Assembly: GCA_030697165.1 (NCBI GenBank)
Contig: JAUYQQ010000002.1
Span: 124,001 to 188,000, forward strand
Length of the DNA: 64,000 bases
Source of the DNA: Acidobacteriota bacterium
GTDB taxonomy: Bacteria; Acidobacteriota; Vicinamibacteria; Vicinamibacterales; UBA2999
Direction: 5' to 3'
Made by a program: the position numbers and the translations under genes
In this document: positions 23,309 through 55,899 of the stretch, piece after piece
Position numbering within the stretch: the stretch's first letter is position 1
How the letters are laid out: each line of letters opens with the position of its first letter
The notes under the pieces: model-generated
Told to the model about the DNA's origin: nothing
What the model saw: the letters and a program-made list of their open reading frames with translations, nothing else
Databases searched by the model: none

Positions 23309-24100
23309 ATGCCTGATGAAGCTGTGACCTATGGCAACTACCTCGCGGTTGATGAGTTGCTGGCCCTGCAGCGGCCACGCTCCGCGGGGCCCGAGCACGA
23401 CGAGATGCTCTTCATCGTCATTCACCAGGTCTACGAGCTCTGGTTCAAACAGGTCCTGCACGAGATCGACCACGTGATGGCGCTACTCGACGCGCGCGAC
23501 CCGTTCCGGGCGCAGCATTCGCTCAAGCGCATCCTGACCATCCTCAAGGTGATGGTGGCGCAACTCGACATTCTCGAAACCATGACGCCGCTGGAGTTCC
23601 AGTCGTTTCGTACGCGCCTCGAGGCGGCCAGCGGATTCCAGTCGGATCAGTTCAGGCAACTCGAGTTCGTGCTGGGACAGAAGTCGCGCCCGGCGGTGGA
23701 TCGCTTTCCGGCCGGCAGCCGCGCGCGGGCCGCGCTGTTGCGCCGCTTCGAACAGGGCACGTTGTGGGACGCGTTCTTGCGTTACCTGGCACACGAGGGC
23801 TACGCGGTACCGGCGGCACTGCTGGCGCGCGACGTCACGGCGAAGGTCGAGGCGTCTGAACAACTGCAGGCAACGTTGATCGAGGTGTATCGCCGCGACC
23901 CCATGCGTGCCGAAATGTGCGAGCGGCTGGTGGATCTGGACGAAGGCATCCAGGAATGGCGTTACCGCCACGTCAAGATGGTGCAGCGGACCATTGGCGC
24001 CAAGATCGGCACCGGAGGATCGGCCGGAGCGCAGTACCTGGTCACTACGTTGATGACGCCAGTGTTTCCCGATCTCTGGGCCATCCGTTCGGCGCTGTGA
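23309..24100 (+). CDS. kynA: tryptophan 2,3-dioxygenase
   Basis: A 263-aa heme enzyme that opens the indole ring of L-tryptophan to N-formylkynurenine, the first step of the kynurenine pathway. Family motifs are MLFIVIHQVYELWFKQ (active-site region near the N-terminus), TPLEFQSFRTRLEAASGFQS and WRYRHVKMVQRTIG, with the likely proximal heme ligand His221. They are followed by GTGGSAGAQYLVTTL, which binds the substrate carboxylate and amine. Length is normal for the bacterial form. The start is supported by TAAGCT exactly six bases upstream (leaderless). No kynureninase or formamidase gene is nearby. Confidence 0.95.
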   Translation: MPDEAVTYGNYLAVDELLALQRPRSAGPEHDEMLFIVIHQVYELWFKQVLHEIDHVMALLDARDPFRAQHSLKRILTILKVMVAQLDILETMTPLEFQSFRTRLEAASGFQSDQFRQLEFVLGQKSRPAVDRFPAGSRARAALLRRFEQGTLWDAFLRYLAHEGYAVPAALLARDVTAKVEASEQLQATLIEVYRRDPMRAEMCERLVDLDEGIQEWRYRHVKMVQRTIGAKIGTGGSAGAQYLVTTLMTPVFPDLWAIRSAL

Positions 24101-24203
24101 TCCAGAGCGCTGGAGTCCCGTTTTTCAATCCGTTGGATTCGTCAGTTCCCTTAGCCTGACGTCCTTCGACTTTTGGCCTGTTTTTGCCAGATCGGCGGCG
24201 CCG
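24101..24203 (+). other. spacer with weak hairpin after kynA
   Basis: TCCAG-AGCG-CTGGA (24101-24114) followed by GTCCCGTTTTT could end kynA transcription, but the stem is short. The rest is unremarkable up to the promoter of the small RNA. Confidence 0.35.
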
Positions 24204-24232
24204 TTGCCCCGGCACGGCGCTTGCTTTATACC
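24204..24232 (+). promoter_or_regulatory. sigma70-like promoter of the candidate small RNA
   Basis: TTGCCC (24204-24209) and TATACC (24227-24232) are separated by exactly 17 bases. Transcription would begin near 24239. Confidence 0.6.
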
Positions 24233-24238
24233 GGGTGA

Positions 24239-24362
24239 AAGTTTGACGTCCCCCACAGGAAGTCATACCTTGTCCCGCCGCAGCCTCCGGGCACAGGCGG
24301 AAGTTTGAGTCAGGCTGACTAGGCCACTGACTCGCGGGGCCCTTATGAGGGCCCTTTTTTTT
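24239..24362 (+). ncRNA. candidate structured small RNA of about 124 nt, family unknown
   Basis: A stand-alone unit: promoter at 24204-24232, three hairpins, then a classic terminator. Hairpin 1 (24244-24265) pairs TGAC and TCC with GGA and GTCA, each side having one bulged base, around CCCACA. Hairpin 2 (24275-24300) pairs CCGCC with GGCGG and encloses a GCC-TCCG-GGC mini-stem. Hairpin 3 (24307-24333) pairs GAGTCAG with CTGACTC. The terminator is GGGCCC-TTATGA-GGGCCC (24337-24354) followed by eight T. AAGTTTGA occurs both at the 5' end and between hairpins 2 and 3. There is no downstream gene on this strand, so it is not a leader. I do not recognise a known RNA family. Confidence 0.6.
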
Positions 24363-24435
24363 GCTCCGCCAAGCAGTGCACGGAGCAATCCACCATAGCT
24401 CGCAGCACCGAGCGACGGTGGATGCCCCCGAGCCT

Positions 24436-25386
24436 CTACCCCTTCTTCAGCTGCGCAATCAGGCCCTTGGCCTGGGCCGCTTCAGGCGAGTTGGGATCGA
24501 CGGCGATCACCTTCTCCATGATCTCGAGCGCGCCGGCCATGTCGGCCTTCTGCAGCTTGGCGAGGCCGATCTTGAACAGCGGCTTGCCCCAGGTGCCGTC
24601 CATGTCAACGGCGCGCTGGTAGTACGTCACGGCCTCGTCGGTCTCACCCTTCGCGAACTTCACCTCGCCGAGGTTGTAGAACACCTCGCGGTTCGCGCTG
24701 GTTGAGGTCGCGACTTCGAGCAGGTGCTTCTCGGCGTTGGCGAAGTCGCCCTTCTCGAGATAGGTCATGCCGATCTCGATCTTCGACTTGTCGTTGTTCG
24801 GGTCGGCCGCGAGCACCTTCTGGTACGACTCGATGGCGCCGTCGAAGTCCTTCTTCAGCCGCTTGACCTGGGCGATCTGACCGTTGATCATCGTCAGCGC
24901 CGGGGTCTTGACGAGAATGGCCTCGTAGGCGGCGATGGCCGCGTCATGCTGGCCGCCGTTGGCGAGGTCGATGGCGGCTTGCAGTTCACCTTGGAGTTCC
25001 TTGGTGTTGACCCCGGCCAGCGCGCCAGCCGGACCGGCGGCACCGGGAGCCAGCACGAAGTCGACCGGTGGATTGGGCGAGCCCAGTGAACGGATCGGCA
25101 CATTGCCCGACGAAGCCGCGAAGCCCGGGGCCACCGCCGTCACCTTCCACGTACCGGTCTTGAGGCCGATCATCGAGTAGCGGCCCTTGTCGTCGGTCGT
25201 TGCCGTGAAAGACGAGGGCGACGCCGCCGGATTCTCAGCCGTAACCGTGGCGCCCTTTAGGGGCTGGCCCTGAGGGTCCTTGATGGTGCCGCCAACCCGG
25301 CCCGTCTGCGCGGCGGCCGGGAGGGCCGAGACCACGAGCGCCACGACCAGAGCCGCCGCCGAAAAGATTGTCTTCAAGTCACGCAT
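24436..25386 (-). CDS. exported TPR-repeat protein with carboxypeptidase-regulatory domain
   Basis: 316 aa. A signal peptide (about 1-27, ending ALPAAAQ) is followed by a carboxypeptidase-regulatory-like beta sandwich (GRVGGTIKDPQGQPLKGATV, then DKGRYSMIGLKTGTWKVTAV; about 30-105). Five or more TPR units follow from about residue 130, for example IESYQKVLAADPNNDKSKIE and AVTYYQRAVDMDGTWGKPLF. The protein is probably periplasmic and acts in protein-protein contacts; its partner is unknown. ATG 25386 is supported by GGGAGAA upstream. It diverges from the serine hydrolase/NamZ gene, whose -10 box lies in the shared spacer. Confidence 0.82.
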   Translation of the reverse strand: MRDLKTIFSAAALVVALVVSALPAAAQTGRVGGTIKDPQGQPLKGATVTAENPAASPSSFTATTDDKGRYSMIGLKTGTWKVTAVAPGFAASSGNVPIRSLGSPNPPVDFVLAPGAAGPAGALAGVNTKELQGELQAAIDLANGGQHDAAIAAYEAILVKTPALTMINGQIAQVKRLKKDFDGAIESYQKVLAADPNNDKSKIEIGMTYLEKGDFANAEKHLLEVATSTSANREVFYNLGEVKFAKGETDEAVTYYQRAVDMDGTWGKPLFKIGLAKLQKADMAGALEIMEKVIAVDPNSPEAAQAKGLIAQLKKG

Positions 25387-25424
25387 TTCTAGCTTCTCCC
25401 TTAAAGGAACCACAACCGAATCAG

Positions 25425-25436
25425 TATATTAGCCCC
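25425..25436 (+). promoter_or_regulatory. leaderless promoter -10 box for the serine hydrolase/NamZ fusion
   Basis: TATATT (25425-25430) lies six bases before ATG 25437. The same AT-rich patch can serve the divergent TPR gene as TATACT on the other strand. Confidence 0.55.
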
Positions 25437-27866
25437 ATGCGTCGAACGCTATATCTCGCCGCCCTGGCCGTTGTGGCGGCCACCCCTGTCCAGTTCGACG
25501 CCCTGAGCGAGGGAAAGGCCGGTCAGCGGACCGGGCTTCCCCGAGTCGAATGGGCCCGAATCGACGAATTGGTGGCCGACGGAATCACCGCCAAAGCTGC
25601 CCCCGGCGTCGTGGTCCTGGTCGGGCGTGGCGACCAGACCGTGTACGAAAAGGCCTTTGGCGCCCGGGCCACGGTTCCTTCACACGAGCCGATGACTCTG
25701 GATACGATTTTCGACCTGGCATCGTTGACCAAGGTGGTGGCCACCACCACGGCCGTGATGACACTGGTTGAGCAGGGCCGGCTCCGGCTCAACGACCCGG
25801 TGGCCGCGTTCGTGCCTGGGTTCGAGCGCTACGGCAAGGGCGGCATTACCATCCGGCACCTGCTGACGCACGTGTCGGGGCTACGTCCCGACGTCGACCT
25901 GCACCCGTGGACCGGCTACGACGCGGCGATTGCCCTGGCCGTGGACGAGGTGCCGACGATGCCGCCCGGCGCGCAGTTTGTGTACAGCGACATCAACTTC
26001 TTCCTGCTTGGCGACATCGTGGCCCGTGTCACGGGCGAATCACTGGACGGCTACCTGCAGCGCGCGGTCTTCGCGCCGCTTGGGATGCGCGACACCGGCT
26101 TCCGCCCGGCGACGGCGTTGCTGCCACGCATGGCCCCGACCGAACGGTGCGCCGAACAGGATGCCTGGCCTTGCAAGCGTCCCGATGCGGCGCCGCTGCG
26201 CGGCGTCGTCCACGACCCCACGGCGCGGCGCATGGGCGGTGTCGCCGGGCACGCCGGGCTATTCGGCACCGCGCGGGATCTGCAGCGGTTTGCCCGCATG
26301 TTGATCAACGGCGGCGAACTCGACGGGGTGCGCGTGCTGTCGGCTGCCACCGTCGCGCGGATGATTGCGCCGGTGCCCATGCCGGCCAATGCCGGCACGC
26401 GCGGCCTCGGCTGGGACATCGACACCTCGTTCTCGTCGAATCGCGGCGACCTGTTTCCGATTGGCTCGTTCGGGCACACCGGGTTTACCGGTACCAGCCT
26501 CTGGATCGATCCCGCGTCGAAGTCGTACGTGATCTTCCTGTCGAGTCGTCTTCATCCCGACGGCGTGGGCGATGTCGGAGTCTTGAGGAGTCGCATCGCG
26601 ACGGTTGCCGCGGCTTTGCTCAGTGGCGGCGGTACGGTCCGCCTAAAGGCGGACGCTACATTGACACCCAATGAGGTCCGGCTAAAGCCGGACACCACAT
26701 CGGCGACCTCTGTGGGGTCCGGATTTTGCGGGACCACTCCTGTGCTGAACGGCATCGACGTCCTCGCCCGCGATGGTTTCGCGAAGCTCAAAGGCAAGCG
26801 CGTCGGCCTGATCACCAACCACACCGGCGTCGCGCGCGACGGCCGGTCCACCATCGACCTGCTGCACGCCGCGCCCGGGGTGCAGTTGGTGTCGCTGTTC
26901 GCGCCCGAGCACGGCATCCGCGGCGTGCTCGATGCCGACGTGCCTGCAGAGAAGGATCAGAAGACGGGCCTGACCATCCATTCGCTGTACGGCGAAACGC
27001 GGCGTCCGACCGACGCGATGCTGGCCGGCATCGACACGCTCGTAATCGACCTGCAGGATATCGGCGCCCGTTTCTACACCTATCCCGCCACGACCGGCTA
27101 CGTGCTGGAGGAGGCGGCGAAGCGCAAGATCGCCGTGATGGTGCTGGACCGGCCGAACCCGGTGAACGGCTGGCAGATCGAAGGGCCGAACCAGAGCGAG
27201 CCGATCCGCGAGTTCATTGCGTACTTCCCCATGCCGGTCCGTCACGGCCTGACGCTGGGCGAGCTGGCCCGGGTGTTCAACGACGAGAAGAAGATCAATG
27301 CCGACCTCACCGTGATTCCGGCAGAGAACTGGCGGCGCGACTACTGGTTCGACGACACCGGCCTGGCGTGGATCAATCCGTCGCCCAATATGCGCAACCT
27401 CAACCAGGCGGCGCTCTATCCCGGCATCGGCGCGATTGAGTACTCGAACGTGTCGGTGGGACGCGGCACCGACCAACCCTTCGAGCAGTTCGGTGCGCCG
27501 TGGATCGACGGCCCGCGCCTGGCGGCCGCCTTGAACGCGCGCCAGCTGCCGGGCGTGCGCTTCTACCCGGTCGCGTTCACGCCGGCCTCCAGCAAGTACG
27601 CCGGACAGGCCTGCCAGGGCGTGTTCATGGTGATCACGAATCGATCAGCGCTACGGCCGGTGCGCGTCGGACTCGAGATTGCCGGCGCGTTGTTTGCGTT
27701 GTTTGGCGAGAAGTACCAACTGGAGAACACCGACCTGCTGCTCGGATCGCGCGACAGCCTCGAGCGGGTCAAGCGCGGCGAGGACCCGGCGGTGGTCGCG
27801 GCGCGCTGGGGAGATGACGAGGCGCGCTGGCGCCGGTTGCGCGCGCAGTACCTCCTCTATCGCTGA
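25437..27866 (+). CDS. fusion of a class C beta-lactamase-like serine hydrolase and a DUF1343/NamZ exo-N-acetylmuramidase
   Basis: 809 aa, exported by a short N-terminal hydrophobic segment. Residues about 40-395 are a serine beta-lactamase/transpeptidase-like fold: SLTK (96-99), YSD (183-185, canonical YxN) and HTG (347-349). Residues about 436-809 are DUF1343, the GH171 NamZ family that removes terminal MurNAc: LITNHTGVARDGRSTIDLL, FAPEHGIRG, IDLQDIGARFYTYP and NPSPNMRNLNQA. Together they point to peptidoglycan or muropeptide trimming in the periplasm. The linker (about 400-420) is encoded by two palindromic repeats and reads VRLKADA and VRLKPDTT. The ATG sits six bases after TATATT (leaderless); the frame upstream of it is not part of the gene. 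Confidence 0.88.
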   Translation: MRRTLYLAALAVVAATPVQFDALSEGKAGQRTGLPRVEWARIDELVADGITAKAAPGVVVLVGRGDQTVYEKAFGARATVPSHEPMTLDTIFDLASLTKVVATTTAVMTLVEQGRLRLNDPVAAFVPGFERYGKGGITIRHLLTHVSGLRPDVDLHPWTGYDAAIALAVDEVPTMPPGAQFVYSDINFFLLGDIVARVTGESLDGYLQRAVFAPLGMRDTGFRPATALLPRMAPTERCAEQDAWPCKRPDAAPLRGVVHDPTARRMGGVAGHAGLFGTARDLQRFARMLINGGELDGVRVLSAATVARMIAPVPMPANAGTRGLGWDIDTSFSSNRGDLFPIGSFGHTGFTGTSLWIDPASKSYVIFLSSRLHPDGVGDVGVLRSRIATVAAALLSGGGTVRLKADATLTPNEVRLKPDTTSATSVGSGFCGTTPVLNGIDVLARDGFAKLKGKRVGLITNHTGVARDGRSTIDLLHAAPGVQLVSLFAPEHGIRGVLDADVPAEKDQKTGLTIHSLYGETRRPTDAMLAGIDTLVIDLQDIGARFYTYPATTGYVLEEAAKRKIAVMVLDRPNPVNGWQIEGPNQSEPIREFIAYFPMPVRHGLTLGELARVFNDEKKINADLTVIPAENWRRDYWFDDTGLAWINPSPNMRNLNQAALYPGIGAIEYSNVSVGRGTDQPFEQFGAPWIDGPRLAAALNARQLPGVRFYPVAFTPASSKYAGQACQGVFMVITNRSALRPVRVGLEIAGALFALFGEKYQLENTDLLLGSRDSLERVKRGEDPAVVAARWGDDEARWRRLRAQYLLYR
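26637..26700. repeat. two palindromic repeats inside the NamZ fusion linker
   Basis: GTCCGCC-TAAA-GGCGGAC (26637-26654) with suffix GCTACAT and GTCCGGC-TAAA-GCCGGAC (26676-26693) with suffix ACCACAT are in frame within the coding sequence. Another copy, CTCCGGC-TAAA-GCCGGAG plus GCTACAT, follows the gene at 27868-27885. A diverged copy lies in the FAD subunit gene at 53683-53736. Confidence 0.85.
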
Positions 27867-55844: not shown

Positions 55845-55899
55845 GACACCCCAACTTTAGCAAAGGTCGTGCCCTGGCCGCCTACACTAAAGGCAGCCC

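Follow-up and report, generated by a model that had tools for sequence, protein, structure and literature searches.

A conserved small RNA with a sigma-54-type promoter in one Acidobacteriota family and its predicted pairing with a second small-RNA-like element

In Caulobacter crescentus, the RNA CrfA is described as induced by carbon starvation and as carrying a second stem-loop complementary to the small RNAs SisA-D, in which a single-stranded anti-Shine-Dalgarno stretch, CCUCC, comes after a weak hairpin (PMC12559287). The accounts of Vibrio cholerae report the LuxO-activated RNAs Qrr1-4, which share a conserved core, and a sponge, QrrX, under the control of a LysR protein (PMC9732341, PMC4211561). 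CrcZ and CrcY of Pseudomonas are reported to have an RpoN promoter and to depend on CbrB, and the RNA sequesters a regulator (PMC8657755). For Acidobacteria, Acido-1 and Acido-Lenti-1 (RF01686, RF01687) are presented as candidate non-coding RNAs from comparative genomics (PMC2864571), and Table 1 of a 2022 survey gives four distinct annotated small RNAs for Acidobacteriota (PMC9029176).

The RNA analysed here is encoded in a window of 64,000 nucleotides, the whole stretch of DNA under study, which comes from the genome designated G000; its relatives are numbered G001 onward. The RNA follows kynA and is convergent with the next annotated gene. Its 5' start was placed by inference 12 nt past the C of the -12 GC of the promoter described below, and its 3' end at the T run of the terminator. 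The locus and the parts of the RNA are:

23309 to 24100, plus strand: kynA, tryptophan 2,3-dioxygenase (Pfam PF03301), the upstream neighbour, outside the RNA
about 24236 to 24362, plus strand: the small RNA, ~127 nt, with homologues accepted in 16 genomes
24244 to 24265, plus strand: hairpin 1, whose stem varies and whose C-rich tip, CCCCCACAGGA at 24250-24260, is conserved
24275 to 24300, plus strand: middle hairpin, a lineage-specific insertion found in G000, G002, and G008 only, among the 11 first homologues
24304 to 24333, plus strand: near-invariant block of 30 nt with hairpin 2, TTTGAGYCAGGCTGACTAGGCCRCTGRCTC
24336 to 24362, plus strand: intrinsic terminator, called by a scan, whose stem is preserved among relatives, the alignment showing one double change
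24436 to 25413, minus strand: gene of a TPR / carboxypeptidase-regulatory-like protein, the convergent neighbour, used for synteny

The next plus-strand gene with a family match begins at 25368. The single reading frame from 25368 to 27866 joins a beta-lactamase-type domain to the N- and C-terminal domains of NamZ (exo-N-acetylmuramidase). On the 3' side of the terminator, an inverted repeat (ATCCACC...GGTGGAT) occupies window positions 24388-24423; G003 and G001 have similar units at about this position, and the repeat is perhaps a dispersed palindromic element.

Folding of positions 24230-24362 recovered the three hairpins of the original prediction (24244-24265, 24275-24300, and 24307-24333), and the terminator at 24336-24362 was confirmed as GGGGCCCTTATGAGGGCCCT followed by eight T. 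The fold has an energy of -56.5 kcal/mol against a mean of -45.8 kcal/mol for dinucleotide shuffles (z -2.65), and 3 of the 200 shuffles were as good, which is a modest result by itself. The motif AAGTTTGA, previously assigned twice to single-stranded positions, does occur in two copies, but both run into stems, and the conservation of the second copy is limited to TTTGAG. The block at 24304-24333 has, among the nine genomes of the genus, a mean pairwise identity of 95% against 42% for the spacer between enhancer and promoter. It is shortened in G024 and G027, which retain GGCTGACTAGGC. The loop of hairpin 2 is changed in G042, where it reads GGCCGAUUAGGCC (a matching partner would read GGCCUAAUCGGCC), and in G041.

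In the alignment of relatives that had been proposed as a check, compensating changes within the RNA are few: covariation is thin because the block hardly varies. One pair of hairpin 2 is changed on both sides, from C-G to U-A, and two of five covariation measures, the pairs changed on both sides and the further pair types, did not rise above shuffles. The stem of hairpin 1 re-forms with other letters in relatives. When its arms were permuted among nine representatives, 379 of 20000 permutations were as good, a result that is suggestive only. The C-rich tip motif, CCCCCACAGGAG, carries a single-A insertion in G000 and G006, is shorter in G024 and G027, and is altered in G003, G031, G041, and G042.

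When 43 family genomes were searched at the DNA level, the stretch was recovered in all eight other genomes of the genus, with E-values from 2.8e-30 to 4.8e-5, and strong matches also appeared in G039, G040, and G031. The conservation of the stretch is more than chance. A covariance model, R1, built from 11 sequences and run at E <= 0.5 against 162 genomes from the order, returned 18 matches, 15 of which were accepted; the matches in G081, G093, and G129 were rejected after their DNA had been read. The sixteenth locus, in G024, was noticed by eye upstream of a cytochrome gene. A second model, R2, built from 15 loci with G024 and without G031, was run against 193 genomes of the class at E <= 0.1, and its 19 matches comprised the 16 accepted genomes and three (G093, G104, and G189) that were rejected on reading their DNA. 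The rejected stretch in G104, which belongs to another family of the order (L208 544-675, minus strand), has a good match to a sigma-54 promoter with CTGCACAGCC shortly downstream, and lacks the hairpin-2 motif. Run against 396 genomes sampled across the phylum at E <= 0.01, R2 gave seven matches: six genomes of the genus and G347 (E 0.005). Within the reach of R1 and R2 and their stricter filters, the RNA seems restricted to a single family. Its carriers among the relatives are metagenome-assembled Acidobacteria, and a contig of ND5_Bin_50 holds a kynA 84% identical to that of the window together with the same RNA core. No match to the exact 19-nt core pattern was found in viral contigs.

The covariance-model search that the original prediction had put forward assigned the RNA to no Rfam family at the gathering threshold: the sole match at that threshold in the whole window is a tRNA elsewhere. 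Between positions 24090 and 24430, seven matches appeared at E up to 10, the best at E 0.2 and all far below gathering, and none of the models for 6S, SRP, tmRNA, RNase P, Qrr, Acido-1, or Acido-Lenti-1 matched the RNA at gathering. Divergence from one of the housekeeping RNAs (6S, SRP, RNase P, or tmRNA) is hardly a credible origin. The size of the RNA is of the same order as that of 6S or SRP RNA; the weak Rfam matches, none reaching gathering, and its acceptance in only 16 of the 193 genomes searched in the class speak against a housekeeping role, since housekeeping RNAs are, to our knowledge, general across genomes. Of the earlier description as a regulatory or housekeeping RNA, the first half is supported, that of a free-standing structured regulatory RNA. 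In the open-access papers searched on small RNAs of Acidobacteria and Vicinamibacter, sigma-54 RNAs, and sponges, the titles, abstracts, and passages contained no recognised description of it.

The RNA had been predicted to possess its own promoter and terminator, and both are supported, with the promoter of a different class. Neither hexamer of the proposed sigma-70 promoter, TTGCCC-17-TATACC, is kept in relatives as judged by eye, and a consensus scan made no call there. The conserved control elements are:

24100 to 24115, plus strand: enhancer-like site 1, an ATCCAG-N4-CTGGAG dyad that begins on the final base of the kynA stop codon
24123 to 24138, plus strand: enhancer-like site 2, a TTTCAA-N4-TTGGAT dyad
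24210 to 24224, plus strand: sigma-54 type promoter, CGGCAC (-24 region), N5, TTGC (-12 region), present at 16 of 16 homologous loci

All 16 loci carry CGGCAY-N5-TTGC at the expected place ahead of the predicted non-coding transcript, a pattern that we assign to the sigma-54 class on its -24/-12 consensus. The second half of enhancer-like site 1 is loosely conserved. The pair ATCCA-N28-TTGGAT occurs with fixed spacing at each of the 15 loci with enough upstream DNA, a count that omits G041, where the end of the contig cuts the locus; the first element reads AACCA in G005, and the pair is inverted at the same spacing in G024. When the nine genus genomes were searched for the paired enhancer sites in tandem, allowing one mismatch, the RNA locus was found in all nine, along with three other matches in one genome each; the reversed-pattern control gave no match. 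The pattern of enhancer-promoter spacing found the RNA locus in eight of nine genomes, the gap being shorter in G005; it had nine further matches, in one genome each, against 10 for the reversed control. The gene rpoN (PF04552) is present in all nine. Across the window, three matches to a sigma-54-like promoter, the RNA's own among them, stand against 0.56 expected; the other two lie at 1814-1828 and 55859-55873, both on the minus strand.

Downstream of the RNA and on the same strand, 11 of the 16 RNA-bearing genomes have a multiheme cytochrome c gene with HEAT/TPR repeats. The argument that the RNA is not a riboswitch leader for want of a protein gene downstream on its strand holds for this genome and is not general. 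The RNA might accordingly be read as a 5' leader to the cytochrome gene, begun by sigma-54 transcription and with its terminator serving as a regulated attenuator, and as a relic in this genome after loss of the gene. We consider this improbable. At E <= 1e-30 the cytochrome gene was present in 17 of the 43 family genomes and was not found anywhere in G000, G003, G008, G031, and G041, five genomes that each carry the RNA (completeness is 85% for G003 and 80% for G008). Two of these five behave as a leader without its gene might: the RNA of G041 is altered at otherwise invariant places, and a long insertion in G031 separates the promoter from hairpin 2, changes that fit decay after loss of the cytochrome gene. 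The other three, G000, G003, and G008, argue the opposite, each retaining enhancer, promoter, hairpins, and terminator. In G008 (L002 / L148), a decayed cytochrome gene follows the RNA as a 47-residue remnant of 85% identity, and the loss beside an intact RNA is apparently recent. Three separate losses are the simplest count because a tree of two neighbouring proteins separates the three genomes (support is 79 at the node joining G000 with G002 and G008, and 97 and 99 at the other relevant nodes). The losses in G000 and G003 may not be wholly independent, since the two genomes share, by eye, a similar stretch past the terminator.

Further observations weigh against the leader. Six genomes (G009-G013 and G016) have a homologue of the cytochrome with no RNA detected, and inspection by eye found no such leader before the gene. 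Several cytochrome genes have, again by eye, a -10-like box just past the terminator and a short distance ahead of the start codon, which suggests that they possess promoters of their own, and no alternative antiterminator fold was visible by eye in single-sequence folds. Because G000, G003, and G008 keep the RNA and its control region without the cytochrome gene, the RNA probably acts in trans. It is probably not a mere leader, and it may have a cis role besides the trans role.

Candidate partners were sought as exact 11-nt complements of the hairpin-2 loop in the nine genus genomes. The 11-mer has 10 non-self copies against 21 for the reversed pattern, which is no excess over chance, and all 10 sit in two orthologous loci, A in seven genomes and B in three. 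Locus A is the spacer between the genes of YqeY and MurJ (PF09424 and PF03023, with Pfam tested in G000):

1460 to 1564 of L226 (contig C9 about 263650-263750), on the yqeY/murJ strand: element A, with orthologues in L213, L217, L221, L223, L225, and L227

On the strand of yqeY and murJ, element A has promoter-like blocks, then TGAAAGGCCTAGTCAGCCTCTCACCATCCTCCT, invariant in all seven genomes, and then a hairpin and a T run. The 33 nt of its 5' part are invariant in the seven genomes, and its terminator hairpin shows compensating changes. The layout, a weak hairpin, then ACCAUCCUCC with a CCUCC anti-Shine-Dalgarno stretch, and then a terminator, is that of a small RNA, and we regard element A as a putative second small RNA. 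It has no match in Rfam, the best below-threshold E-value being 1.7.

Locus B (L230, L224, and L216, at ~position 1501) lies past a ribonucleotide reductase gene (PF02867; of nrdJ type by eye) in three genomes. It carries AGAGGCTGACTAGG, which has the sense of the RNA itself and not that of its complement, directly ahead of a terminator-like hairpin, and could be a second sponge site.

G003 and G004 carry the RNA, and a search of their genomes did not find the exact 11-mer partner. No homologue of the YqeY or MurJ gene and no partner RNA were found in the 1.09 Mb of G042 and 0.38 Mb of G004 that were covered; on contig C41 of G042, a block syntenic to the G000 region ends before the place of yqeY-murJ. 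A search for the partner RNA recovered the known partner of G000 at E 5e-32 and its terminator read backwards at E 0.012. It also gave four weak matches at E 0.03-0.35 (L143, L151, L153, and L154), in stretches holding the sigma-54 RNA, which were taken as likeness of hairpin and terminator. A second R2 match in G008 (E 0.067) overlaps the yqeY-murJ partner locus.

The predicted contact on the RNA falls within the near-invariant block:

24306 to 24325, plus strand: predicted pairing site, with TGAG at 24306-24309, a 2-nt bulge, and AGGCTGACTAGGCC at 24312-24325

The RNA and element A share a gapless complement of 14 nt in seven of the nine genus genomes, with four more pairs (TGAG/CTCA) past the 2-nt bulge, and the variable Y of the block falls inside the unpaired bulge. 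Each 14-mer can fold into a small hairpin, and the two loops, GACUA and CUAGUCA, complement each other, as would be usual for the start of a kissing contact. The 14-nt complement arose in 0 of 1000 shuffled partners in six genomes and in 2 of 1000 in G005, and shuffling the first 33 nt of element A lowered the mean gain to -1.8 to -4.6 kcal/mol, with 0 of 100 shuffles as good in each of four genomes, figures that overstate the surprise because element A was found via the 11-mer. The predicted gain of the real pairing is -11.6 to -15.8 kcal/mol in the seven genomes, and -15.8 kcal/mol in G000. The whole-length energy from RNAduplex is unimpressive and does not single out the real partner: in five of seven genomes at least one of 500 mononucleotide-shuffled partners had a lower energy than the real one. 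The search did not select for the 3 nt by which the match exceeds the 11-mer, the 4 nt past the bulge, the position of Y, or the location of the predicted site in an invariant small-RNA-like element. A possible second contact, of AGGAG in hairpin 1 with CUCCU, fits in five of the seven genomes and is broken by the inserted A in G000 and G006.

Qrr-type RNAs have a comparable promoter architecture and depend on sigma-54, and this resemblance raises the alternative that the RNA pairs directly with mRNAs in the Qrr manner, the yqeY-murJ match being a side relation, either a regulator or incidental. The near-invariant core and the conserved C-rich tip could meet ribosome-binding sites, hfq is present in all nine genus genomes, and the partner matches are no more than chance. 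We hold direct pairing with mRNAs to be rather unlikely, as the non-self 11-nt sites, being exact complements of the hairpin-2 loop in nine genomes, resolve into the small-RNA-like element A and the same-sense locus B. The complement of the partner's own anti-ribosome-site stretch has three matches in the window, with two mismatches, against 1.7 expected.

The same complementarity bears on the idea that the RNA acts by titrating a protein, as CrcZ and CsrB-type RNAs do. It explains the conserved block better than titration does, and the short conserved motif CACAGGA, which would speak for titration, has one conserved copy per RNA and forms no array. Titration thus appears very improbable, even though CrcZ is likewise reported to have a sigma-54 promoter (PMC8657755).

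The reading that we favour, with modest confidence, is that the RNA is a trans-acting decoy, or sponge, driven by sigma-54 and an enhancer, which would capture the yqeY-murJ RNA through a loop-loop contact. It builds on what can be read from the DNA, namely conservation, the promoter and enhancer-like elements, the structure, persistence without the cytochrome gene, and complementarity. From these we infer transcription, the pairing itself, the direction of the effect, the targets, and the signal. A signal would activate an enhancer-binding protein at the two dyad sites, which in this genome lie ~70-110 bp ahead of the promoter, and sigma-54 polymerase would transcribe the RNA until its own terminator ended the transcript. 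The RNA would display hairpin 2 with the inner loop GACUA, which would contact the UAGUC loop of the yqeY-murJ small RNA, and the contact would zip into a duplex of 14 bp with 4 bp more past the 2-nt bulge. Hfq would perhaps assist in the capture of element A. The second RNA would be sequestered, its CCUCC anti-ribosome-site stretch would be kept off ribosome-binding sites, and its mRNA targets would be released. We tentatively propose, as quite possible though short of probable, that the two elements form a two-RNA switch, not recorded before, of a single Acidobacteriota family, in which an enhancer-activated sigma-54 decoy captures a yqeY-murJ hub RNA by way of a kissing loop that extends to an interrupted duplex of 18 bp. 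The hub RNA may be under more than one sponge, with locus B as a capture site in three genomes.

If the decoy reading is right, it adds two new small RNA families in Acidobacteriota, a phylum common in soils whose small RNA regulation is little charted, and it supplies a full control region, consisting of enhancer, sigma-54 promoter, and terminator, together with an RNA partner and an exact pairing site. It would also suggest that sponges against anti-Shine-Dalgarno small RNAs exist outside Proteobacteria too, and that a regulatory RNA can outlast an adjacent gene together with which it may have arisen.

Compared with the described RNAs of its own phylum, the RNA is absent among the matches to the Acido-1 and Acido-Lenti-1 models, also at a permissive threshold, and the Qrr family is missing from its Rfam matches both at gathering and with E relaxed to 10. 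As far as the published description of CrcZ and CrcY goes, the likeness lies in an RpoN-dependent promoter and an enhancer-binding protein that drive a sequestering non-coding RNA; CrcZ captures a protein complex, whereas the predicted partner here is a second RNA. The accounts of Qrr1-4 and QrrX share with the present locus two small RNAs that pair with each other, and the roles are exchanged: the LuxO-controlled RNA of Vibrio is the regulator, whereas at this locus the role of sponge would fall to the RNA under sigma-54 control. In layout, the closest established case, judged from the passages on CrfA and SisA-D, is the pair from Caulobacter, which belongs to another phylum and whose sequence relation to the present RNAs was compared through Rfam only. 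The pairing of CrfA with SisA-D is experimentally shown, and that of the present RNAs is predicted from sequence. Both systems have in common the layout of the captured RNA, which in element A is a weak hairpin, ACCAUCCUCC, and a terminator. They differ in that the pairing is centred here on the 5' hairpin of the partner and in CrfA/SisA-D on the anti-Shine-Dalgarno stretch, and in that the RNA described here, unlike CrfA, has sigma-54-type control with enhancer-like sites.
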